Below, one piece after another: positions 1,125 through 12,896 of a stretch of DNA of 64,000 bases. Below the pieces are notes generated by a model, which was not told the origin of the DNA, searched no databases, and worked only from the letters and a program-made list of their open reading frames with translations. The stretch is from Paludibacter sp. (GTDB lineage Bacteria > Bacteroidota > Bacteroidia > Bacteroidales > Paludibacteraceae), in the NCBI GenBank assembly GCA_028710895.1, contig JAQTTH010000005.1:62001-126000 (forward strand), written 5' to 3'. Within the stretch, counting starts at the first letter, position 1. Every line of letters begins with the position of its first letter. A program made the position numbers and the translations under genes.

Positions 1125-1571
1125 CTATCGATAATTTCTTTTTAAATTCTCATTCAAAATTCCAACTATGTAATCTGCTGTTTCTTGAATACGCCCATGT
1201 ATCAATACATTGGGAATTCTAACAGTATAAAATCCTTTCTTGAATGAATGATAAGTTCGCTTTAAATCAGCCATAGCTTGCTCGTAACTGTAGTTGTGAT
1301 GACCTCCATCCACTTCAATATTTATTTTCGCCTCTGAAATCGCAAGGTCAATGTGTTTAAAACCATCAAATTTCTCAAGTTCAGCAGGAACACCTCTTTG
1401 TTTTAATTCGAAATACAAGGATATTGCTTCAAATGTGGATTGTTCTGACATTTGATTTATCCAATCCTGATGGTACATACACAACGGTATTCCCAATTGC
1501 TGAACTGAAAAATTAAAAACTCCTTGTGTTATTGGTTGGTTACATTCCAAACAAAAATAATTTTTATCCAT
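1125..1571 (-). CDS. Zinc-knuckle VSR/DUF559-like endonuclease
   Basis: A 148-residue protein with two visible parts. Residues 7-34 hold C7-x2-C10 and C31-x2-H34, a likely small zinc-binding knuckle. Residues 73-120 read HIDLAI...INIEVDGGHH, with D75, E86, D88 and the GGHH turn. This is the pattern of DUF559 and very-short-patch-repair-like members of the PD-(D/E)XK nuclease superfamily. The expected activity is cutting or nicking DNA; the substrate is unknown. It begins 13 nt after the stop of the STAND NTPase gene and is presumably co-transcribed as the last gene of a three-gene module. The start is an ATG. Homing or repair nucleases share this fold, so the defence role is inferred from context. 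Confidence 0.65.
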   Translation of the reverse strand: MDKNYFCLECNQPITQGVFNFSVQQLGIPLCMYHQDWINQMSEQSTFEAISLYFELKQRGVPAELEKFDGFKHIDLAISEAKINIEVDGGHHNYSYEQAMADLKRTYHSFKKGFYTVRIPNVLIHGRIQETADYIVGILNENLKRNYR

Positions 1572-1584
1572 ACATATGAATTTA

Positions 1585-4500
1585 CTATTTCTGACTTTTC
1601 TCTATTATTTTATCTGCAAGGAAATAATACATTACGGCAATATTACTTGTAAGTTTTTCAAGTCTTGGAATCCAAGTTTTCAATTCTTTTTCTCCTAACA
1701 ACGAACCAAAATCACTTTTCTTAAATGCATTTTCATTCGGATAGAAAAAAGGATGACTATCTAATGAGAATTGAAAAAAATCATTTCTTTCATTGTCATC
1801 CTTAAAATCTATCTCACCATTATCGCACATTGAGAGATAAAATGCAAAAAGATTGAGTCCATTAGTTAGATTTTCTTGAAGCAAACCACTAATTTTACTT
1901 GTGTAATCGTTCCATACTTTTTCACTATAATCTTCAACTTTTTTGTTTTTGAAATATCTTAGTTGGTAAAAATGATTAGCTAGTTGATTTAGCATTGAGA
2001 CACTCCCTAAAAGTTTATCCAAATCCTTAAACTCAATTAATGTATTATTCCAGGAATCAATTTTAAATCTTTCGATAACATCATTTGGAATATCCTTCGG
2101 TAAAAAATTAAATGGTTCTAATTCATCAAACTTCCTTTCTCTAAGATTATACGTTTTAAACTCAAACCATTTCTGATTGATTACTTTACCTTTTATCCGA
2201 AAAATAATATTGAATGTTGGATAGTTCGTACTTAATATTAAATATCTTATTGATGTGTAATCAGGTTGCTCAATTTGTTCATATAATTTATTATAAATCA
2301 ATCCTAATAGTTCGAAAGTTTTAATTGCTGAGGTATGATCCACTGTGATAATGCATCGTTTTTCTTCTTTGCTAAATGAGACGCTTATTTGACACTCTTG
2401 TTCTTTGGCTAATACTTTTAATCCTTTTACTACACTATCTTCAAGACTTTCATTGGTGTCATTGATTTTATTAAAAGCCAGTTTGAGCACATTTCCACTT
2501 ATAAATCTATCAGAATAAATAAACTGTCGATACAGAAAACAAAGAATTGATATCTTTTCAATCTCTTCCAGCTCTATCTTCCGCAGCTTGTATGGGTCTA
2601 CAAATTTTTCAAAATGAGCACGAAACAAGTGCTGAAACTCAAGTATGAGTTCGTAAGCTCTGAATAGATTTCCAAGAGAAACTCTACCAGGGTTATGTAT
2701 CTCTGAAACATCTTCTTTAGACAATATTTTTGCCTTAAGATAAATATATTCAGCACCCTGAGTTAAATAGTTTTCTATAGAAGAATCACAATTATTATAA
2801 AACTGGCTAAAGATATTATACTTTTGTATAGCGAGCATTTGATTGATATTTGATTCTCCCGAATTATTGTTTACAGTTTGTGGTGTCTTTATTGATTTGA
2901 TACCACCTTCACCAAATTCTGAAACAACTGATTGTGGAAATTTGGGTTTCACTTTAACTCTTATCGCATTTCTATATTTTGAATTGTAGTCATTGTAATA
3001 TTCTGCTAATGGATTAAAACTTTGATGTTTGTGATATAAACCAAATGCATAAGTCATTTTCGATAAAACGTCAACAAAAAGAAGTCGTCTTTGAACTACT
3101 TCTTTTACATACTCTTGCCACGAGTTTGGTCTTTTTGTATAATCAAATAAATTAATAAAAGTTGAATTGATTTCTACAAGTTGTGGTAACGGAAGATTAT
3201 TTCTCGATATTTTTTTGATTGAAGAATCATAATCATCAGAGATTAATGAAATTTGATGTCCAACACCTTTTGTTTCGTACGTTTCTTCATCAGGAAATGC
3301 GATTCTCAATAACTCAACTATTTTTACTGATTTGGCATTAAAAATATCGGTTTCTTGTGTTTCTATCTTTTCATCTATGACATCAAATAGATAATCACAT
3401 TTAATTGAATGTTTGTCTCTTGAAATAGCAATGATATTGTAAGTCTCAGACAATTTTTGAAGGAAAAACTTTTCAACCTCTTCAACATATTTGCCAGACT
3501 CGATACTGTATTTCTTTAAACCATATAAAACATGTGCAATTACATCAAGAGGCTGATTCCTTAATGTCCTTTCAAATTCAAACTGTTGAAATTTTACAAT
3601 AACACCATTGACATTGAAATAATCAAGCCAAAATAAAAATAAACCAAAAGCATTCCAATCATTTTTATTATCCGGGATAATGTCAATTGATTTTAGGCCT
3701 TTTAGCCAAGATATACAATAATTAAAAATTTCTTTTTTATCTGTGATCCTATCATTTACATTTTTTGCATATTGCTTTTGTTCTTCAGAAAATATGCCTG
3801 AATTGACCATTATTCCACCCTCATCAAGAATATTTACTAAGTCCGGATTTACGACAATCATCCACCCATTATTGTATTCTTCGTAAACTTGATTCAATGT
3901 ATTGATATTTCTGTTTAAGTAATCAGCAATACCTTTCCATTGTAGCGCCTTTAGTATCTGAAGATATACTTCCCATTTCTGAGGTTCAAATAATTTTAGC
4001 TTTTCGATTAAAATATTTGGACTTAGTTTGCTTTGAATAAATCCATTTCTAAGAAAGTTTAAAATTGTATTATCGCTGATAAATGGTAATGCATTTAATA
4101 CATAATCTAATTCAATATTAATCTCATTATCGAATAATAAATCTCTAATTATTTTTGAACGAACAGGATGGAGTCCTGAAATAGATGTTCTATCTCCAGA
4201 TATTCTAATCAAATATTCATTTTGGAGTAAATCAAGTAACAGGGTAATTTCTTTTTGAGGCTTAAGGAACTGATTGATTTCTTTAAGCTTTATTTTAGAC
4301 CCAAAGCAATCAGCTAAAACAACGTATCGTAATAAGTTTATTTTATCACCACTAATAATATCCGAATCTTTTCTAATCTTATTTATTTGTGATTTGAGTT
4401 TTTCGGATAAGGTCTCACTATGAGTTATCAAATAGACAAACTCTAACAAAGGACCTTTACCACCAAAGTGTGCCCAAGCGTCTTCAAAATCAACAAATCT

Positions 4501-5724
4501 GAGATCTAAACTATGATCATTTAGTGACTCGTAAATTCGTTCAGCTTCTTCTTTTTCAAATAAAAGTTCAATCTCAGTAAAACTGAATTTATCTTTAATT
4601 TCAATGCTATTCCAATCTTCCTCTCGTATTGTGATCAAAAAATTGAAATGCTTATTTGTGGATAATTCTATCAATATATTGATCCAATCTTTGTTTCCTG
4701 GCTCAATGTCGATATAAATTGTAATTGGGAAACGAATTCCTTTTGAAATCCCTTCTAAAGCCTCTATCACTTCGTATACCTTATTGATATTCTCCGGTAA
4801 TTGCTTTAACTCATAGACAGTTGATAGAGAATGATAGTCATGTAAATATCTATAGGCTAAAGTACTTTTCCCCTGACCGGAAGCCCCATGAATAAAAACA
4901 ATATTTGATTCGTGAAATTTATTTTGAATAGTATCTAATTTATCAATTCTTTTTACATCAACATCAGCCAAAATATGTTTATAATTAGCGGATATACCAT
5001 TGTAAAAACCAACTTGTAACTGCTCAATATTTTCTGTGTCAATTTTTGTATCTAATTGCCTTATTAAAGAGTTATATGTTTTGTTGAAACTAATTCTTTC
5101 TTTTTGGAACTTGCAAATTTCATCAAATTGCTTTTTGAAAGTAATTGGTGTTATAATTTCTTGTTTTTCTGAAGCGTAATAAATTGCATGTAACAATAAA
5201 TTAAATGTTTTTTCTACATCAATTAAAGTACCCCATTTCTGAATATTGGCAATTACATTGTTCTTAATTATATTTTCATCAGCAATTTCATATTCAAAAT
5301 TTCTTTGAAGTATCTCTATCTCATGATTCTTAAGTTGTAGACCCTTTAGTTTACTGATTAGTTTTTGAGAGTATTCTGTTGAACTGAGTTCTTTAATTTC
5401 ATTACTAACATTACCGAATGATACTAATTTTATTATAGGTGTTTTATTTTCATTGTATGCCTTTAATGCCCGTCTAATAAAAGTATTTTCTTTCTTTGAT
5501 AAAATTTTACTCAGCGCCATAGTGTCTGAGTAGTCTTTTACCTGAATAATTTCAATAACTTCTCCCTCCTCATTATAGACATCTAAGTCTTCATATTGCC
5601 CTTCTGAATGAAATTCTCTTTCATGAACTTTATATGATAATATTCTATTTAAGGCATATAGAAACTGAACTCTATACCCTTTTAGAGCGCTTATGGCTCC
5701 AATATTATTTGATTTGTGGATCAC
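1585..5724 (-). CDS. Nuclease-STAND NTPase, candidate anti-phage protein
   Basis: A 1379-residue protein. Residues 1-100 resemble the dsDNA nuclease domain (DUF4297/Cap4-like, PD-(D/E)XK type) seen at the front of defence NTPases: a GYRVQFLYAL helix, acidic E45/D46/D48, then IEIIQVKDY with Q61-x-K63. A P-loop NTPase follows: Walker A GASGQGKST at 280-288, a Walker B-like strand ending IYIDIE near 336-341, and LITIREEDWN at 363-372, the arginine motif of STAND ATPases. The remaining ~900 residues are unrecognised, presumably helical, and probably the target-sensing part as in Avs proteins. The start is GTG and its first bases overlap the stop of the upstream gene (GTGA), implying translational coupling. 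It is not clearly one of the named Avs families. The domain reading is direct; the immune function is inferred. Confidence 0.7.
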   Translation of the reverse strand: MIHKSNNIGAISALKGYRVQFLYALNRILSYKVHEREFHSEGQYEDLDVYNEEGEVIEIIQVKDYSDTMALSKILSKKENTFIRRALKAYNENKTPIIKLVSFGNVSNEIKELSSTEYSQKLISKLKGLQLKNHEIEILQRNFEYEIADENIIKNNVIANIQKWGTLIDVEKTFNLLLHAIYYASEKQEIITPITFKKQFDEICKFQKERISFNKTYNSLIRQLDTKIDTENIEQLQVGFYNGISANYKHILADVDVKRIDKLDTIQNKFHESNIVFIHGASGQGKSTLAYRYLHDYHSLSTVYELKQLPENINKVYEVIEALEGISKGIRFPITIYIDIEPGNKDWINILIELSTNKHFNFLITIREEDWNSIEIKDKFSFTEIELLFEKEEAERIYESLNDHSLDLRFVDFEDAWAHFGGKGPLLEFVYLITHSETLSEKLKSQINKIRKDSDIISGDKINLLRYVVLADCFGSKIKLKEINQFLKPQKEITLLLDLLQNEYLIRISGDRTSISGLHPVRSKIIRDLLFDNEINIELDYVLNALPFISDNTILNFLRNGFIQSKLSPNILIEKLKLFEPQKWEVYLQILKALQWKGIADYLNRNINTLNQVYEEYNNGWMIVVNPDLVNILDEGGIMVNSGIFSEEQKQYAKNVNDRITDKKEIFNYCISWLKGLKSIDIIPDNKNDWNAFGLFLFWLDYFNVNGVIVKFQQFEFERTLRNQPLDVIAHVLYGLKKYSIESGKYVEEVEKFFLQKLSETYNIIAISRDKHSIKCDYLFDVIDEKIETQETDIFNAKSVKIVELLRIAFPDEETYETKGVGHQISLISDDYDSSIKKISRNNLPLPQLVEINSTFINLFDYTKRPNSWQEYVKEVVQRRLLFVDVLSKMTYAFGLYHKHQSFNPLAEYYNDYNSKYRNAIRVKVKPKFPQSVVSEFGEGGIKSIKTPQTVNNNSGESNINQMLAIQKYNIFSQFYNNCDSSIENYLTQGAEYIYLKAKILSKEDVSEIHNPGRVSLGNLFRAYELILEFQHLFRAHFEKFVDPYKLRKIELEEIEKISILCFLYRQFIYSDRFISGNVLKLAFNKINDTNESLEDSVVKGLKVLAKEQECQISVSFSKEEKRCIITVDHTSAIKTFELLGLIYNKLYEQIEQPDYTSIRYLILSTNYPTFNIIFRIKGKVINQKWFEFKTYNLRERKFDELEPFNFLPKDIPNDVIERFKIDSWNNTLIEFKDLDKLLGSVSMLNQLANHFYQLRYFKNKKVEDYSEKVWNDYTSKISGLLQENLTNGLNLFAFYLSMCDNGEIDFKDDNERNDFFQFSLDSHPFFYPNENAFKKSDFGSLLGEKELKTWIPRLEKLTSNIAVMYYFLADKIIEKSQK

Positions 5725-6680
5725 TTTGAAATTTTAATAGTTAGGTTAGATTCTTGTTCTTTTAATTCATCAATAACATCATTTAGAAACTTCGGATATG
5801 ATTCTGCAAGTTTGTAGAGTGATTCCCAATTATTGTTGTAGAGTGCTTCATACTTATAATGGGCGTGTAAGTATAATGGATTTAGTTGTGATATTTCAAT
5901 TGTAAGGAAGCTTTGATTAATCTTTTGTTCCAATACTTTATAAAAGATCTGATCAAAAATATAAATATCATGAATTAAGTCCATTAACATCATTGGATAT
6001 GCAGATGTGATTTTGCCCCAATAACTTTCTGAAAATTCAAAATTCAAATCCGTCATTATATAATTTGAGAATGAAGCATTGAATGAAGAATGTATAGATT
6101 CCGACAAAAAGGATTTTTGTTTTTTTCTTCTATCAATTAAGAATTGTATATAGTCGGGAGTAATAGATAGTTTCTCAAATAGTTTCTTGTACTCGTTTGG
6201 TAATTTATCTTTTGAAAAGTGCTTCCAATAAAAATCGTTATTGTCATATAGTTCGTTTGTACTCGAAAAAGATTCATTCAATTTATCATTGATAATACAT
6301 GCAAAAAAGACATCAATTGTTTCTATAAAAGGCCTTTGTAGATTCTTTATACAATCGGGTAAGCCTGAATAAATCATTTTCCGTATTCCAATCAGTAAAG
6401 TAATCAATTTAGAAGACAATATAAGAAATGATAATCCAGACTTATTTTCCTGGTGAGTTGATTTACAGACCTCATGTATTTGAATAATCAGATTTAATCC
6501 ATCATCAAATAAAACCAGATAGCTTTCTAACTCTTTATCCAGAATTTTTTTATTCTTTTTAGATTGACTTTCAAGTTTGTTATCGAGCTCAACCGAACCT
6601 TTTAACCCAAAATTTCTTTTAAATGCTTTATCGAGTTTTTTAGACTGTTGCTTTATGTGCTTTATATTATCATCTTTCAT
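5721..6680 (-). CDS. Helical protein, DUF5677-like, first gene of STAND module
   Basis: A 319-residue, Lys- and Leu-rich protein without a signal peptide. Residues about 85-150 carry a repeated helical pattern around a GL...LQRPFIETIDVFF segment, resembling DUF5677-type proteins. This is a resemblance from memory, not a firm assignment. The N-terminus is charged and probably coiled. Its stop overlaps the GTG start of the nuclease-STAND gene by four bases, so the two are almost certainly made together. It may be a partner, regulator or sensor of that NTPase. Its ATG lies about 48 bp from the end of an IS982 element that has separated it from its former upstream DNA. Confidence 0.55.
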   Translation of the reverse strand: MKDDNIKHIKQQSKKLDKAFKRNFGLKGSVELDNKLESQSKKNKKILDKELESYLVLFDDGLNLIIQIHEVCKSTHQENKSGLSFLILSSKLITLLIGIRKMIYSGLPDCIKNLQRPFIETIDVFFACIINDKLNESFSSTNELYDNNDFYWKHFSKDKLPNEYKKLFEKLSITPDYIQFLIDRRKKQKSFLSESIHSSFNASFSNYIMTDLNFEFSESYWGKITSAYPMMLMDLIHDIYIFDQIFYKVLEQKINQSFLTIEISQLNPLYLHAHYKYEALYNNNWESLYKLAESYPKFLNDVIDELKEQESNLTIKISK

Positions 6681-6728: not shown

Positions 6729-7709
6729 ACCCGTAGTGCATTTATACTACAAGTGATTTTGAATTGTTTATATTTCTATTTAATAATTTGTTTATCATTT
6801 GAATAACCGTAACAGCGGTGATTTTTGATAGTATTCTTGTTTTATAACCGTCAAAAGACTTAGCGTAGTTTCGACGAATCATAAATTGATCACATAGTTG
6901 AGAAAAGAGCGTTTCAATTCGTTTTCTGGTTTTTCTGAAAAGATAAGGTTGTTTCTGATAATTGTGTTGATTAACTCTCATTGGTACTTCTAACCTTATT
7001 CGGTTTGAAGTAAATAAATCGAGTTGGTAATCAGCACTTAAATACCCTTTATCACCAATCAAAACACAAGAAGACATGTTGGTTTTTATGCTTTTCAAAA
7101 AATGAATATCATGTACAGATGCTTGAGTGAGTTCAAAATTGGTAAAAACGCCATTAGAACTGCATACAGCATGTAATTTGTAACCATAAAAATGCAACTT
7201 TTGACTAGCACAATACCCTTTGGAAGGACTTGTCAAAAAGTCTTCTTTGCAAATAGTAGTTCTTGATGAACGACTTAGCTTGCAAATTTCCAAAGGCATG
7301 CTGTCAACGATAAAATAGTTTTCAGCACCTGTCAACTTTTCCGCTAACGCTTTGCGGATTCGCTCTTTTACAAAAAATAATCTTCGTCTTCGACGATTAT
7401 AAACACTGCGTTCAATTTTTGAACTTAATGAACTTGGAATAGTTCTAAATAATTGATATTCAGAATCAATACTTAGTGATTCTGCTGTTATGTCTAAAGC
7501 GATTAATTCAATATCGCTTAAACGTGGACGACGAATTTGATTCAAAAAGTTACTTTTTGTCTCAAATTGCTTTAATATATCGAGAATTTTCTCGTACTTT
7601 GTTAGGAAGTTGTTCATGATATTTATATGATTGGTAGTCAGATAAATATACGGATTTTATCCGACATGAACAACTTTTTTTATGCTATCTCTCTAAATGC
7701 ACTACGGGT
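6729..7709 (-). mobile_element. IS982-family insertion sequence, intact
   Basis: A 981-bp element bounded by perfect inverted ends: ACCCGTAGTGCATTTA at 6729-6744 and its inverse at 7694-7709. It encodes one complete transposase. TTATTA is found directly outside both ends (6723-6728 and 7710-7715), a 6-bp target duplication, so this is a true and probably recent insertion. Removing the element joins the 3' side of hipA to the start of the STAND module. Both the transposase and the module are on the minus strand, so read-through from the element into the module is possible. Confidence 0.92.
6742..7617 (-). CDS. IS982-family transposase
   Basis: A 291-residue DDE transposase of usual IS982 length with no frameshift or early stop. 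The catalytic triad is visible: D105 in IVDSMP, D189 in LIGDKGYLS and E235 in RKRIETLFSQL. An arginine run (NRRRRR, near residues 74-79) and the conserved YGYKLHA block lie between. It cuts and reinserts the element that carries it, acting at the inverted ends listed above. Its stop codon lies only a few bases inside the left end, as is common for compact insertion sequences. It appears functional. Confidence 0.93.
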   Translation of the reverse strand: MNNFLTKYEKILDILKQFETKSNFLNQIRRPRLSDIELIALDITAESLSIDSEYQLFRTIPSSLSSKIERSVYNRRRRRLFFVKERIRKALAEKLTGAENYFIVDSMPLEICKLSRSSRTTICKEDFLTSPSKGYCASQKLHFYGYKLHAVCSSNGVFTNFELTQASVHDIHFLKSIKTNMSSCVLIGDKGYLSADYQLDLFTSNRIRLEVPMRVNQHNYQKQPYLFRKTRKRIETLFSQLCDQFMIRRNYAKSFDGYKTRILSKITAVTVIQMINKLLNRNINNSKSLVV

Positions 7710-7715
7710 TTATTA
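7710..7715. repeat. IS982 target-site duplication, right copy
   Basis: TTATTA abuts the right terminal inverted repeat and matches 6723-6728 exactly. Confidence 0.8.
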
Positions 7716-7782
7716 CATTTAGCTTTCATGAAAAGGGAAAAAGATTATCCATAAGTTCGAGGACAAACAGATTTGTTACAAA

Positions 7783-9084
7783 TTATAAGATTATTAGTGT
7801 TTTGTCAATCCTATCTCTGAGTTCAGGAAAAACATTCACTTCGTCTGCAAATTTCTTCCATTGGCTCACATTCTCATTTATTTCATTTATAATGCTTACC
7901 GCTTTTTTTGTTTTGATTGTATTTTCAACAGATAGAAGATCTTCCTTTGTAATGTCTTTTCGCTTGCCATTCATACTTAAAGCGTGTTGGCTTATCCATC
8001 TGTTATCGGGACTGTAAGCATAACAAATATCATAAGCTGGTGATAACTCCCATTTACCCTCTTTTTTCAATCTAAATGAAAAGTTTTTGGTGTGATCATC
8101 GCAATTCTGTGCTATAACATTGAATACCATCCGCCTAAACATTTGTTCTGTATCCTGATAATCCAATTTTAGCTCTCGCATCGTTTGAAATAGCTGCTCA
8201 TAGCTAAAACTATTTACCTGATTGAAATCGAAATGTTTCAATCCGCAAAATGTTTGAATGTGGTGTTTTATTTCTCCACCTTCTCTATCAAAGCGCTTAG
8301 TCATAAAATGAGCTCTTCCGTTTTCTTCCAATAGTCTGGATTGCATCATATCAATACCACAAGCCTTGGCCATGTTATAATATGCCATTTCTACCCGTCC
8401 ATAACCTTTGCTTGCTCCAAGCTGCACATCACTTACACCATCTAATTTAATTAGCCAATGTTCAAATCCATTTGGAGCTTTTGTTTGACCTGATTTGACT
8501 TCGCCAGTTTTCTCATTGTATGCAATTACAGCTTTTGGTCTTGCTCCACCTGCAGAAGTTCCAATCTTTAAAATATCCATAACTGCCTTTTCTTCATCTC
8601 TTTGAAGATTAGTGGTGAAAGCTTCTCTTTTAGATAACATTTTCTGTGCAATATCTACGAGACTGTTTATTTCAATTGAAAATGTTCTTTTGTTTTCTTT
8701 TATTGTTGTCGGTTCAAACTCTAAAGCCCCCATACCTCTGGTTCCTATAAAGCAAAGCATTTCAACCGGATTCATGCTATCCTGTGGTTTACCATTTTGA
8801 GCTAACCACATATTGATAAGTTGATTACCGTATTTATCAGGAAGCATGTCAGACAACAAGCCTGGTAACCCTTTGAATGTATCAAATTCGGCATTTTTGT
8901 CTCGTCTTAGTTCTGGAAATGATATTACTTTCCTAGCTGAGGCAATTGGCATTTTCAATGGTGCCAAATCCCAGTTTAGTTTTTTGAAATTGGGGTCATA
9001 TTCAAAACTGGCTATACCAGTTCTTTCATCCCATGCGACCGCACCAACTAATTTTCCCCAGATTTTTACTTCTGCTACATCCAT
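7783..9084 (-). CDS. hipA: HipA-type serine/threonine kinase toxin
   Basis: A 433-residue, full-length HipA-like kinase. Residues 1-125 hold the HipA N-terminal region with the G-LPGLLSDMLPD segment. Residues 175-185 (GTSAGGARPK) form the phosphate-binding loop. The catalytic stretch NCDDHTKNFSF (327-337) and metal-binding D352 in SPAYDI are intact, so it should be active. HipA kinases phosphorylate aminoacyl-tRNA synthetases (GltX in E. coli) and cause growth arrest unless bound by HipB. The gene starts 26 bp after the end of its hipB-like partner. Its 3' end lies close to the IS982 insertion but is not damaged by it. Confidence 0.9.
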   Translation of the reverse strand: MDVAEVKIWGKLVGAVAWDERTGIASFEYDPNFKKLNWDLAPLKMPIASARKVISFPELRRDKNAEFDTFKGLPGLLSDMLPDKYGNQLINMWLAQNGKPQDSMNPVEMLCFIGTRGMGALEFEPTTIKENKRTFSIEINSLVDIAQKMLSKREAFTTNLQRDEEKAVMDILKIGTSAGGARPKAVIAYNEKTGEVKSGQTKAPNGFEHWLIKLDGVSDVQLGASKGYGRVEMAYYNMAKACGIDMMQSRLLEENGRAHFMTKRFDREGGEIKHHIQTFCGLKHFDFNQVNSFSYEQLFQTMRELKLDYQDTEQMFRRMVFNVIAQNCDDHTKNFSFRLKKEGKWELSPAYDICYAYSPDNRWISQHALSMNGKRKDITKEDLLSVENTIKTKKAVSIINEINENVSQWKKFADEVNVFPELRDRIDKTLIIL

Positions 9085-9110
9085 ATTTGATTATTTATTT
9101 CAGTTTGAGA

Positions 9111-9434
9111 CTATTCTTTATTTCGACGAGCTCTTTGCCTTTTCTCCTTTTCTATTTTGGCCAATGCCAATGGGCTTATTGTTTGTTTTACTGAAAACAC
9201 TTCCATTACATGCAATTGGTCTAATGCCCTAAGTGCTTGTATTAATGTGGCTAGTGTTACAGTTTCTCCACGTTCTAATAGACTTAAAGTAGACCTACTG
9301 ATACCGGCAGCATTTGCCAATACATCTTGTGTCTTGTTTTGGTTCAGTCGATGGTGACTAATAAAAATTCCAATATGTTCAGCCAGTGCTTTATCGCTCA
9401 TTGAATCCCAGTTTGTGTATGATAAGTCAGTCAT
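9111..9434 (-). CDS. hipB: HipB-like XRE antitoxin
   Basis: A helix-turn-helix protein of the XRE/Cro type. The core LNQNKTQDVLANAAGISRST and LSLLERGETV is a classic five-helix DNA-binding domain, and the tail is basic (KEKRQRARRNKE). I place the start at the internal ATG giving MTDLSYTNWD, 107 residues. A longer frame to 9524 exists, but a good promoter overlaps its extra 30 codons. HipB neutralises HipA by binding it and represses its own operon at upstream operators; repeated palindromic sites are present there. The hipA gene follows after 26 bp. Confidence 0.85.
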   Translation of the reverse strand: MTDLSYTNWDSMSDKALAEHIGIFISHHRLNQNKTQDVLANAAGISRSTLSLLERGETVTLATLIQALRALDQLHVMEVFSVKQTISPLALAKIEKEKRQRARRNKE

Positions 9435-9456
9435 AAAGCTATTTTTTTGCGTTAGT

Positions 9457-9567
9457 GAATGATAATTCATACAAAAGTATGTATTTGTTTTTATACTACA
9501 AAACACGAATGATAAATCACTCATTAAATAGCAAAAAACTATATAATGAATGACATATCACTCATTA
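9457..9567. promoter_or_regulatory. Repeated operator-like sites for HipB
   Basis: Two near-identical sites share the frame GAATGA-N4-TCACTCATTA: 9507-9526 (GAATGATAAATCACTCATTA) and a copy at 9548-9567. Each is an imperfect palindrome of ATGA...TCAT, and they sit 41 bp apart, about four helical turns. A related palindrome GAATGATAATTCAT lies at 9457-9470 near the transcript start. The placement around the promoter fits autorepression by a HipB dimer. Confidence 0.65.
9472..9503 (-). promoter_or_regulatory. hipBA promoter
   Basis: On the minus strand the -33 box TTTTG (9499-9503) and the -7 box TACTTTTG (9472-9479) are separated by 19 bp, matching the Bacteroidota consensus TTTG-N19-TAnnTTTG. 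The predicted transcript starts near 9465, about 30 bases before the ATG at 9434. This supports the shorter hipB start. Confidence 0.75.
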
Positions 9568-9842: not shown

Positions 9843-11912
9843 TTACCCATGTCCAATCACAAAGTAGTTAGTTTTTGAGGGGTCCTTGAGGATAATGTCT
9901 TTTTCGCGCATGAATTTGATGTAGCCTTTGGCGGTACGTTCTTTTACGTCGAGGTATTCTTGTAGTTTATCGGTTAGTTCCTGGTACGTGTAGTAGCGTT
10001 TTTGTGCAAATATTGTTTTGGCAGTGGCTGCAAGTTCGTTTTCTTTGCGCTTTTCTTTTTCTTCTTTGGTTTTCTCACCTAAATAAACATGCATTTCTTC
10101 TTTTTTGTCCCAAGCAAATTGAATGAGCGGTACATCTAACGGACTACCATCACGCACTTTCAGTACTTTTACAACTGACACTCCGGGATGGTCGTCTTTT
10201 TCGATAGAGAGAATGCCGGCGGATTTTCGCTGGAGTTCCGATCCTAAATGACCACGGAGCTTTAACCCGTTCGGGATAAAGTGAAGTACACAGACAATAC
10301 AAGTCTGGTATATTCCTGCCAGCCGATAGAGCTCGTCCACAATACGAATACTTTCTGCTTCATCATTGGCCGAATGGATTAAGTCTGCAATACCATCAAT
10401 AATAACCAGATGAATTCCGCCAAACTCATAAAAGAATTTATCCATGCTTTGGATAATTGCCTGAAGTCGTTCTTTTCGGGACATACCCGTGAGGCAATAT
10501 GCCCTAAAGCTTTCCGGGAATCGTTTCTGCTTTGCCCGTTTGAGGCTGTTCATGATGTTTTTGTAAAGCTGGAGTTCTGACTGTTCGGTATCGTAAAGCA
10601 GAACGGCTTTTTTCTGTCGGTTGGGTTTAATACGAGTTCCTAAGGTATCGATATCATCGTCCTCCGTATTCAAGGTACCTGCAACGAGAGCACAGATATA
10701 GTTACTTTTACCTGTCCCCTCCCCTCCTGTTATACAACACAAGTTTCCTTGTGAACCGAGCGGGACTTTATTAATAGAGATTATCATTTCGGCTGATATT
10801 GGTGGTTTGGTGAAATCTATTTCGCATGATTTTAATACTGCCATTGTTTCTGCATAGATAGTGTCAAGAAATTGTATGAATAGCTTTTGAAAGTTCTCCC
10901 TGGTATTCCCGAGTTTAAAAAAGTCGGAAATGTCTTTTTCTTCCTTTGTACCTTTTAATGGTAACATCAACCGTTTAACACCAAGCGAAGATAGTTGCTG
11001 CTCGTGTTTGGCAGACGCTTCCAAACCGGTTTTATCGCAGTCGTATAAAATAACAACATGCTTAAAGCGGTAAGTAAGCTTCCTGATTGTACTTTGGGGA
11101 ATGTTAGATGTTTCGCTATTGAAACAAATAGCCGCAAAACCTTTAGCAACCAAACTTAAAACATCTTTTTCACCACCGGTGATAAAGAGAATATTGCCTT
11201 TAGGTGGCAACTGCTCCAATCCGAAACAGTATTTGTCGCCCAAATCGCCTGCATACTGAAAACGAACAACCGAAAAAGGTCGATATAGCTTGAGATAGCG
11301 TTTGCCCGGATAGGCAAAGAGTGGCTCTTTGTCGGTTGGCAAGAGCTTATAGGGTTTATTCTCATTGCTTTCTGAGGCGAACTCTTTGAGTGAAGCAACC
11401 TGATATTTAGCAAGGATTGGCGGAGTTATTCCGAATTGTTGCCAAAACTGTAGTTCTTCGTCAGAAAATGGCTTTACTTTAAAAGTAAAGGGTTTTGGAG
11501 TTTTGGGAAGATCAACTGCAGTTTCCATTAAGGGGGACTTAGGGGATGATCCCAAATCCCCAAATGGGGGCTCTGAGTTTGGTGAACGATTGTGTAAGCT
11601 GTTTTCTAATCCCAGGCACAAATCCTGATTGATTTTTTGGAGGATATCCAAGAATCCGGCTGCATGACGGCAGTCGGTTCCTTGTAAAATTCCCACGAAT
11701 TGGAAACAATCTCCGCTATATCCATCGTTGCCGTAATCCTTCAGTTTGTACTGATCGGAAGAACGGTCGAAATACACATTGCATGAAGCTTTCTTATCTT
11801 CGTACAACGGATTGAGAAAATTGCGCCCCACCCGGAACTGAAACGGCAAATAATGTTTAAATACATTTAATCCCTTATTTGTCCGTGCGAGTATTTCTTC
11901 TTTGCTCAACAT
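9843..11912 (-). CDS. TOPRIM primase / RepA-like helicase of a mobile element
   Basis: A 689-residue fusion. Residues 1-100 include the CHC2/primase-like front typical of these proteins (KASCNVYFDRSSDQYKLKDYG). A TOPRIM domain follows, with E248 in FITGGEKD and D291/D293 in ILYDCDKTG. Residues 380-620 form a RecA/RepA-type ATPase: Walker A GGEGTGKSN at 396-404, Walker B D506 in LVIIDG, and VLHFIPNG downstream. Such proteins prime and unwind DNA during replication of Bacteroidota conjugative or mobilisable elements. Residues about 109-133 (PPFGDLGSSPKSPLM region) look like translated repeat DNA inserted in frame between the domains. Its start overlaps the end of the helix-turn-helix gene by 38 bp, suggesting coupled expression. 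Confidence 0.8.
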   Translation of the reverse strand: MLSKEEILARTNKGLNVFKHYLPFQFRVGRNFLNPLYEDKKASCNVYFDRSSDQYKLKDYGNDGYSGDCFQFVGILQGTDCRHAAGFLDILQKINQDLCLGLENSLHNRSPNSEPPFGDLGSSPKSPLMETAVDLPKTPKPFTFKVKPFSDEELQFWQQFGITPPILAKYQVASLKEFASESNENKPYKLLPTDKEPLFAYPGKRYLKLYRPFSVVRFQYAGDLGDKYCFGLEQLPPKGNILFITGGEKDVLSLVAKGFAAICFNSETSNIPQSTIRKLTYRFKHVVILYDCDKTGLEASAKHEQQLSSLGVKRLMLPLKGTKEEKDISDFFKLGNTRENFQKLFIQFLDTIYAETMAVLKSCEIDFTKPPISAEMIISINKVPLGSQGNLCCITGGEGTGKSNYICALVAGTLNTEDDDIDTLGTRIKPNRQKKAVLLYDTEQSELQLYKNIMNSLKRAKQKRFPESFRAYCLTGMSRKERLQAIIQSMDKFFYEFGGIHLVIIDGIADLIHSANDEAESIRIVDELYRLAGIYQTCIVCVLHFIPNGLKLRGHLGSELQRKSAGILSIEKDDHPGVSVVKVLKVRDGSPLDVPLIQFAWDKKEEMHVYLGEKTKEEKEKRKENELAATAKTIFAQKRYYTYQELTDKLQEYLDVKERTAKGYIKFMREKDIILKDPSKTNYFVIGHG
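11513..11588. repeat. REP-like palindromic insert inside the primase gene
   Basis: A G-run/C-run stretch (AGGGGGACTTAGGGGATGAT then CCCAAATCCCCAAATGGGGG) capable of folding on itself, unlike the AT-rich coding sequence around it. It encodes a Pro/Ser/Gly-rich linker of the primase and keeps the frame open. A similar CTTCGGGGACTTTCTCC sequence lies in the gap near 12305. Confidence 0.5.
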
Positions 11913-12231
11913 AGTTTTTGTGACTTTCGATTAAGTGACTAAGGGCTTCCCGATTGCTTTTCACCAAGCGTTCGTTCAACATACGTTTTACCTCAGCTAT
12001 GGTGTAATAGGTCTTGCCTGAGATAATTGAATATGAAATAGTTCCATTTGAGCGAAGGCGCTGAAGGGTACGTTCACTGATTTTCAGAAAGGTGCAGACC
12101 TCATAACTATCTACCCAAGTTTCATCTTCATTGACTTCCTCGGGTTGATAGTTTACTACAAACTTGGCTATGGTGTTGACTTTTTCCATTAAGTCTTTAA
12201 ACGCTTTGGATTCGATAGTGATAACTTCCAT
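11875..12231 (-). CDS. Small helix-turn-helix (excisionase-like) protein
   Basis: About 118 residues from the ATG giving MEVITIESK. The longer frame to 12393 opens with TTG and runs through a repeat-like gap, so I reject it. The central part VDSYEVCTFLKISERTLQRLRSNG followed by TYYTIAEVKRML is the MerR/excisionase-type winged helix (HTH_17) found in many Bacteroidota mobile elements, usually directly before the primase gene. It may regulate the element or aid excision. Its end overlaps the primase start by 38 bp. Confidence 0.75.
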   Translation of the reverse strand: MEVITIESKAFKDLMEKVNTIAKFVVNYQPEEVNEDETWVDSYEVCTFLKISERTLQRLRSNGTISYSIISGKTYYTIAEVKRMLNERLVKSNREALSHLIESHKNYVEQRRNTRTDK

Positions 12232-12310
12232 TTTTTTTAATGTGATAATATGATAATGTGATGATAAGATCACTCCCCAACCCTCTCCAACCTCTATTTC
12301 TCTTCGGGGA

Positions 12311-12329
12311 CTTTCTCCAAAGGAGAAAG
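12311..12329 (-). terminator. Hairpin after the muramidase gene
   Basis: CTTTCTCC-AAA-GGAGAAAG, an 8-bp perfect stem with a 3-nt loop, about 30 bp downstream of the GH108 stop. It is embedded in a C-rich repeat-like gap. On the minus strand a U-rich tract does not follow directly, so its strength is uncertain. Confidence 0.4.
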
Positions 12330-12359
12330 AAATAGGATATGAAGTTTTTTGAGAGGGAG

Positions 12360-12896
12360 TTAAGAGTGATATTCTAATGTGCGGATTATCCAACCATAGA
12401 GATATTTTTTATTGGTGGGCTGTTTTTGGATACTGGCTATGTAGTGAGAGATTTTGCCAACAGTGAATGCCGGTTGGAAATAGCCAAAATCAATGGTGTT
12501 GATTTTTTTGAGTGTGAGCTCGCCAATAAGTCCATCGGTCTTAACTCCAATAACTGATTGAGCGAGTTGCACAGAAGTTTTGATTCCTGTGTTTACCGCG
12601 AAATCGAAGAGTGAGTCTGCTGAATCCTGATTGAGAATAAATTCAGCCTTTAAAGGTATCCAGAATTCGTGTAGATAAAAGATTTCAACCTGTTTTTGCA
12701 TTTCGACATTGCAGTTTAGGTTGCTTGGGAAATCCGGTTTTGATTTCATTTGATCAATCAGCTTCCAGCCCGCCCAATTGTTGTAATTTGCCCGTGAGAT
12801 ACCCCGAAAAGTCTCTTTCCCTAGATCAGCGGGGTCATTGCTGTAAATACCTTCGTGATGAAGTGTTTTTTGTAGTGAAATGTTGAAGTTTGCCAT
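12360..12896 (-). CDS. GH108 N-acetylmuramidase (lysozyme-like)
   Basis: A 178-residue protein of normal family length. The N-terminal signature HHEGIYSNDPADLGKETFRGIS contains E15, the catalytic acid of GH108 (DUF847/TtsA-like) muramidases. The C-terminal half (DSLFDFAVNTG, IGVKTDGLIGELT) matches the peptidoglycan-binding region of the same family. It cuts the MurNAc-GlcNAc backbone of peptidoglycan. There is no signal peptide, so release would need a holin or transporter not seen here. In a conjugative element it may open the wall for DNA transfer; it could also be a phage leftover. Confidence 0.85.
   Translation of the reverse strand: MANFNISLQKTLHHEGIYSNDPADLGKETFRGISRANYNNWAGWKLIDQMKSKPDFPSNLNCNVEMQKQVEIFYLHEFWIPLKAEFILNQDSADSLFDFAVNTGIKTSVQLAQSVIGVKTDGLIGELTLKKINTIDFGYFQPAFTVGKISHYIASIQKQPTNKKYLYGWIIRTLEYHS

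Follow-up and report, generated by a model that had tools for sequence, protein, structure and literature searches.

A 64,000-nt stretch of contig JAQTTH010000005.1 from Paludibacter sp. (assembly GCA_028710895.1, positions 62,001 to 126,000; hereafter the window) contained three adjacent minus-strand genes, here called the trio, which an initial annotation had described as a candidate three-gene anti-phage module; all three open reading frames (ORFs) were found at the places and on the strand given there. In transcription order, the trio comprised (i) p319, encoding a 319-aa protein (5721-6680), (ii) a gene with a GTG start encoding a 1379-aa protein with a Cap4-like nuclease, a STAND NTPase, and a putative C-terminal sensor (1585-5724; hereafter the STAND protein), and (iii) a gene encoding a 148-aa DUF559/Vsr-like nuclease (1125-1571). 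The GTG start lay within a 4-nt overlap with the p319 stop (GTGA), and a 13-nt gap followed before the 148-aa gene; translational coupling across the trio thus appeared plausible, and the three genes were probably cotranscribed. GC content was 29.2% in the trio and 33.8% in the window. A Pseudanabaena plasmid encoded a relative that aligned with 99% of the STAND protein (27% identity); together with relatives in many phyla, this excluded the possibility that the ORF was present by chance.

The STAND protein displayed, according to structure models and profiles, an NLR-like build composed of a Cap4/DUF4297-type nuclease, a STAND switch, and a predicted C-terminal sensor, all encoded on the minus strand. 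Residues ~1-210 (5095-5724) formed a PD-(D/E)xK domain of Cap4/DUF4297/LmuA type, in which E41, D46, Q61, and K63 were invariant across 46 aligned N-terminal halves (alignment A6). Residues ~214-575 (4000-5085) constituted the STAND NTPase plus a winged-helix region, with Walker A at S282-K286, Walker B at D339, R367 within TIREED, and H519 and R522 within a GLHPVRS motif. Residues 576-1379 (1588-3999) were modeled as mainly helical with small alpha/beta parts, and the model of residues 525-1379 reached a predicted local distance difference test (pLDDT) value of 87; Foldseek comparison of this model with solved and viral structures gave nothing at E<=0.001. The initial annotation was therefore right to leave the sensor region unassigned, and only its size had to be corrected from about 900 to nearer 800 aa. 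Its call of a Cap4/DUF4297-like nuclease in one chain with a STAND NTPase also agreed with structure comparison and family profiles, although the Pfam scan of the protein itself gave no Cap4 match and two subthreshold STAND matches, nSTAND_NTPase5 (27.8 bits, cut-off 34) and nSTAND3 (25.7 bits, cut-off 27.2). Alignment A6 held 46 of 49 rows (L040, L070, and L075 omitted; L and G numbers designate loci and genomes, respectively), and the corresponding C-terminal alignment A5 held 47 of 49 (L070 and L075 omitted), both excluding plasmid and phage-record rows; alignments A3 and A4 contained 52 and 32, respectively, of 58 ORFs of at least 1200 aa.

The N-terminal half of the STAND protein had an Avs3-like and LmuA-like fold, with catalytic and Walker residues intact and conserved in relatives. 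Its top Foldseek match was Avs3 (8DGC), aligned over both nuclease and switch, and the Avs3 nuclease is itself called Cap4-type; the window protein could accordingly be a divergent Avs3, which would place it among Avs systems broadly defined. This reading was judged unlikely on the following grounds: (i) none of the three window proteins matched any PADLOC model at E<=1, and Avs4 was matched weakly in only 3 of the 46 N-terminal halves of relatives (best E 0.0031); (ii) the Protein Data Bank sequences listed by profile search (E<=10) included no Avs chain; (iii) the switch scored highest against human SAMD9 (Z 20.5), above every Avs listed; and (iv) no Avs structure was among the matches listed for the C-terminal half, a point not decisive alone. 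Other PADLOC models matched the N-terminal halves of relatives weakly as well, namely PDC-S73 (18/46), PDC-S01 (13/46), and mad8 (12/46), with a best E of 1.3e-6.

The sequence and structure comparison was also applied to other known systems. The STAND protein shared with Avs proteins the arrangement of an N-terminal effector, a STAND NTPase, and a C-terminal region in one chain, and with Avs3 in particular the order nuclease then STAND NTPase, but the 8DGC chain had 2028 residues instead of 1379, and no sequence-profile match to Avs3 was obtained. With Lamassu it shared an LmuA-type Cap4 nuclease. The Lamassu LmuA nuclease works with a separate SMC-like LmuB partner, whereas no SMC-like protein was seen in the Pfam scan of the trio plus six neighbors, and the switch of the window protein was fused to the nuclease instead. 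Likewise, the separate HerA ATPase of HerA-DUF4297 had no counterpart among these nine scanned genes, nor was there a Pfam match to SAVED or SMODS, as would be expected of a CBASS locus with a Cap4 effector, in which the effector is fused to a SAVED sensor and accompanied by a CD-NTase gene. Likeness to Avs5 and SAMD9 lay in the NTPase and winged-helix region; these proteins differed from the window protein in what precedes the NTPase, a Sir2 or Sir2-like domain instead of a Cap4 nuclease. Passages of PMC12931631 assign nSTAND3 to Avs5 as well and describe the resemblance of Avs5 to SAMD9; according to passages of the same paper and of PMC5445408, Sir2 precedes the NTPase in Avs5, a variant Sir2-like domain does so in SAMD9, and repeats follow behind. 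Taken together, the core of the trio was a Cap4-STAND family member of the NLR-like (Avs-type) kind, for which no name was found: within the open-licence PMC literature, no paper naming such a family was encountered, which is not proof of absence.

The two small proteins gave less distinct assignments. For the 319-aa protein, searches of Pfam, PADLOC, and NCBIfam all came back empty at E<=1, and by eye the protein was judged probably helical. It had initially been called DUF5677-like; a direct match of that kind was not obtained, and what stood of the claim was a link of two weak steps through a 330-aa relative in genome G513, which was found at E 7.6e-5 for that single genome among 395 searched (thus of marginal weight) and whose own best Pfam match was DUF5677 at 17.5 bits against a cut-off of 27.1. 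Searches with the 319-aa protein returned the self-match alone among 295 genomes of the order, and the self-match plus two weak matches among 395 genomes of the phylum; a three-row profile run against 296 genomes added, beyond the window copy and G513 (itself a row), two short matches, one of them with internal stops. The 148-aa protein narrowly passed the DUF559 cut-off in Pfam (21.2 versus 20.6 bits), in agreement with the initial call. Unlike other DUF559/Vsr-like nucleases, it added an N-terminal zinc-knuckle motif, C7-x2-C10...C31-x2-H34, and it further contained D75, E86, D88, and H91 (all by eye, positions checked); it is probably a second DNA nuclease. Weak relatives of it (E<=0.01) were present in 23 of 248 genomes besides the window and genome G782 (see below), either standalone or inside much longer frames, and a gene of this type stood directly behind a STAND gene only in the window and in G782. 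Neither small protein matched anything among plasmid and viral sequences.

Recurrence of the trio was surveyed at 82 loci carrying relatives of the STAND protein, 79 of which remained after omission of L001 and L082 (the window's own) and L002 (part of L077); among these 79, the L012 and L013 proteins were identical, L003 and L021 differed at 5 of 1398 positions (stop included), and many loci had flanks shortened by contig ends. The 319-aa gene was found at 0 of the 79 loci (phmmer E<=1; tblastn E<=0.5). A DUF559 gene stood near the STAND gene at a single locus, L065 of Clostridium magnum, where it encoded 268 aa, lay 274 nt downstream, and was weakly like the 148-aa protein (phmmer 0.00025, tblastn 0.007). 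The closest STAND relative found, L008 (10001-14149; 54%), had neither small gene beside it; this STAND gene contained three in-frame TAA codons and was a decayed copy. Among 48 genomes of the genus, including that of the window, G782 was the only other one with any piece of the trio. Its remnant (L105 2307-3522), 82-91% identical to the window in DNA and free of the IS982 copy described below, kept the order hipBA, residues 1-200 from the 319-aa protein, the 75 C-terminal residues of the STAND protein, and the 148-aa gene in frameshifted form; a deletion had taken the middle of the trio, leaving a 254-aa open frame in which the p319 product ran directly into the STAND tail, and the hipBA frames were open. 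The trio thus existed in two species, which represents one lineage and not recurrence.

Comparison of the window with G782 gave nonsynonymous-to-synonymous substitution ratios (dN/dS) of 0.205 for the 319-aa protein (residues 1-200 aligned), 0.281 for the STAND protein tail, and 0.094 and 0.194 for two pieces of the 148-aa protein, compared to 0.042 for hipA and 0.07 for hipB. These values of 0.09-0.28 in the aligned parts indicate that all three trio genes made selected, functional proteins; for the 319-aa and 148-aa proteins, purifying selection speaks for functional products and is not proof of joint action with the STAND protein.

These data bear directly on the possibility of a true three-gene system, in which the 319-aa protein would serve as an adaptor or sensor partner and the DUF559 nuclease as a second effector that the STAND protein would release or activate. 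The 4-nt overlap and 13-nt spacing, the same gene order beside hipBA in the decayed G782 copy, and the selection on all three genes were consistent with such a system, as was the frequency of tight partners elsewhere: co-directional ORFs of at least 100 aa lay within 60 nt upstream of the STAND gene at 22 of 72 testable loci and downstream at 11 of 60 (77 loci in all). The absence of p319 from all 79 loci, the single and distant DUF559 gene, and the lack of both neighbors at the closest relative argued to the contrary, and the partners elsewhere came from many unrelated families, which fits the packing of defense islands: ten scanned proteins (nine neighbors of relatives plus the G513 protein) included MBL (metallo-beta-lactamase) fold, AbiEii, NERD, SMODS, Mrr, MauJ, KAP, and DUF559 families. 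A three-gene system was therefore considered rather unlikely. The trio did not hold up as a recurrent module, its only other copy being the G782 remnant, and the neighborhood survey, named beforehand as a possible refutation of a conserved trio, went mostly against a module, for which the case was weak. The STAND protein was the stable unit and its neighbor genes varied; as far as the searches reached, the 319-aa and 148-aa genes appeared to be lineage-specific additions, the former probably encoding a partner protein.

Relatives of the STAND protein were found at 73 loci of named genomes from many phyla and in one viral contig, as well as on plasmids of Pseudanabaena, Deinococcus, Hymenobacter, and Caulobacter. 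Pattern scans of genome and viral contigs with the lone window protein gave no relative, but an alignment including plasmid and phage-record homologues did recover relatives there. Within the order and class, relatives were sparse: the STAND protein as sole query recovered 2 genomes among 393 from the order, and the N-terminal-half profile recovered 3 among 247 from the class, the window's own genome being counted in both cases. Among the genomes matched, G174 and G929 duplicated the contigs of L077 (counted once) and L023, respectively, and G417 came in addition; neither G929 nor G417 contained either small trio gene. A further relative was carried by L007 (1882-8412; MT836892.1), an 8.7-kb fecal record labeled bacteriophage, which may be bacterial despite this label; the STAND gene of L007 lay behind an AAA ATPase gene and an HNH-like gene, a Septu-type pair by eye.

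A Cap4-type N-terminal profile matched 68 of the 79 loci, a count superseding that of a strict regular expression for the Cap4 motif (49/79). Among the 11 loci without a profile match, inspection by eye still showed an E...D...QxK-like pattern in L006 and L077, and L016 started late; true losses of Cap4 thus numbered at most 8 of 79, falling into two groups: (i) three trypsin-type relatives from Lachnospiraceae, L070 (8245-13162), L072 (5351-9263), and L075 (8257-13153), with TAxH and GxSGSG motifs (pattern plus eye), and (ii) five nuclease-less cyanobacterial relatives, L036 (9563-13564), L037, L038, L057, and L061, which began near the switch. In the first group, an upstream gene overlapped the mechanically called start of the STAND gene by 11-17 nt; this gene encoded an MBL fold in L070 (Lactamase_B, 25.1 bits), and the L072 and L075 copies clustered with it. 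In the second group, a small ORF stood ~20-45 nt upstream, encoding 131-146 aa in four loci and 212 aa in L061, and the STAND frames of L037, L057, and L061 were broken. The Lachnospiraceae relatives suggest that the effector can be exchanged while switch and sensor stay constant; this pattern is circumstantial evidence of an immune-receptor family. Three observations weighed against a clean swap: L070 gave a weak Trypsin_2 match (E 0.027), its residues 6-318 also matched an LmuA model (9.7e-28), and the Cap4-type member L065 was likewise preceded by an MBL-related gene (735 aa). Passages of PMC12799240 describe recurrent nuclease-protease pairs in Hachiman, AVAST, Lamassu, and DRT; the arrangement of L070, L072, and L075 resembled the pairs described there, whereas the window member retained its Cap4 nuclease.

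Several relatives had neighbors of known defense types. At two loci, L005 (1-9870) and L009 (7021-15852), the STAND gene stood beside an MmeI-like restriction-modification gene (annotated as such in L005) and another gene common to both, as if it were nested in one restriction-modification cluster. The STAND gene of L039 (9190-14053) was close behind a CD-NTase (SMODS) gene; an AbiEii-type gene closely preceded that of L066 (1245-6915; Pfam) and that of L060 (8319-16774; by eye); and a KAP NTPase gene directly followed that of L042 (10001-16739), as did a relative of this KAP gene in L060.

The surroundings of the trio in the window were those of a mobile element. An IS982 copy (element ~6729-7723; transposase 6742-7617, minus strand) lay between p319 and hipBA, with ~50 bp between it and the start of p319, and its insertion upstream may separate the 319-aa gene from its native promoter or supply a substitute. 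Farther upstream on the same strand were HipA (7783-9084) and a HipB-like helix-turn-helix (HTH) protein (9111-9524), forming a toxin-antitoxin pair that was also present beside the G782 remnant, followed by a Toprim/AAA_25 primase-like gene and an HTH_17 excisionase-like gene (9843-12393), probably an integrative-element backbone. The trio had been placed next to HipBA; the pair was indeed nearby (7783-9524), with the IS982 copy intervening. A tRNA-Arg gene was located ~4.7 kb beyond the left end of the window, and a tyrosine integrase gene pointing toward the trio ~3-4 kb beyond it (both in L112 12342-13901); from ~14.2 kb of the window onward, the four genes scanned were of sugar-metabolism or BT_3987-like type. 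Given these left-hand and right-hand landmarks, the trio was probably carried by a ~19-kb integrative element that looks tRNA-targeting; no att repeat of at least 16 nt was found. The mobile, defense-type setting proposed in the initial annotation was thus supported by the neighbor genes, the tRNA-Arg gene, and the integrase.

This setting also admits a non-antiviral explanation, namely that the trio, together with hipBA, serves as an addiction or maintenance module of the integrative element. Its probable location inside such an element beside a toxin-antitoxin pair, and the decay of the only other copy (G782), would suit that role; nevertheless, relatives of the STAND protein from unrelated phyla, both chromosomal and plasmid-borne, adjoined restriction and abortive-infection genes of diverse kinds, and they appeared to exchange their N-terminal effector as immune receptors do, so that a maintenance function was regarded as highly improbable.

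The STAND protein is instead interpreted, with good confidence, as a stand-alone NLR-like Cap4-STAND abortive-infection (anti-phage) protein accompanied by two lineage-specific riders. By analogy with Avs, LmuA, and HerA-DUF4297, from which sensing, oligomerization, DNA cleavage, and cell death are inferred, the C-terminal region would keep the STAND switch closed in the resting state; binding of a phage product to this region would allow nucleotide exchange to open the switch and the protein to oligomerize; and the N-terminal Cap4-type domain would then cut phage DNA, host DNA, or both, ending infection at the cost of the cell.

A broader proposal is put forward tentatively, as possible although short of probable: the window protein may belong to a so far undescribed family of NLR-like receptors that spans phyla and could count as a new Avs type. 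Such a family would combine a SAMD9-like switch and a constant sensor of unsolved fold with pluggable effectors, these being Cap4 in most members, trypsin/MBL in Lachnospiraceae, and a missing nuclease plus a small upstream gene in some cyanobacteria; the Bacteroidales lineage would have gained two components, among them the zinc-knuckle DUF559 nuclease, resulting in a two-nuclease system. NLR-like proteins link bacterial immunity to that of animals and plants, and this cross-phylum family has a window member that falls outside the PADLOC models, with a switch scoring structurally closer to human SAMD9 than to the solved Avs proteins listed and a confident C-terminal model for which no counterpart was found. 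Should the family prove antiviral, the phage trigger and the fold of the sensor would be directly testable, and if one and the same switch does carry either Cap4 or a protease with an accompanying MBL-fold nuclease, this exchange would constitute a clean natural experiment in modular immunity.

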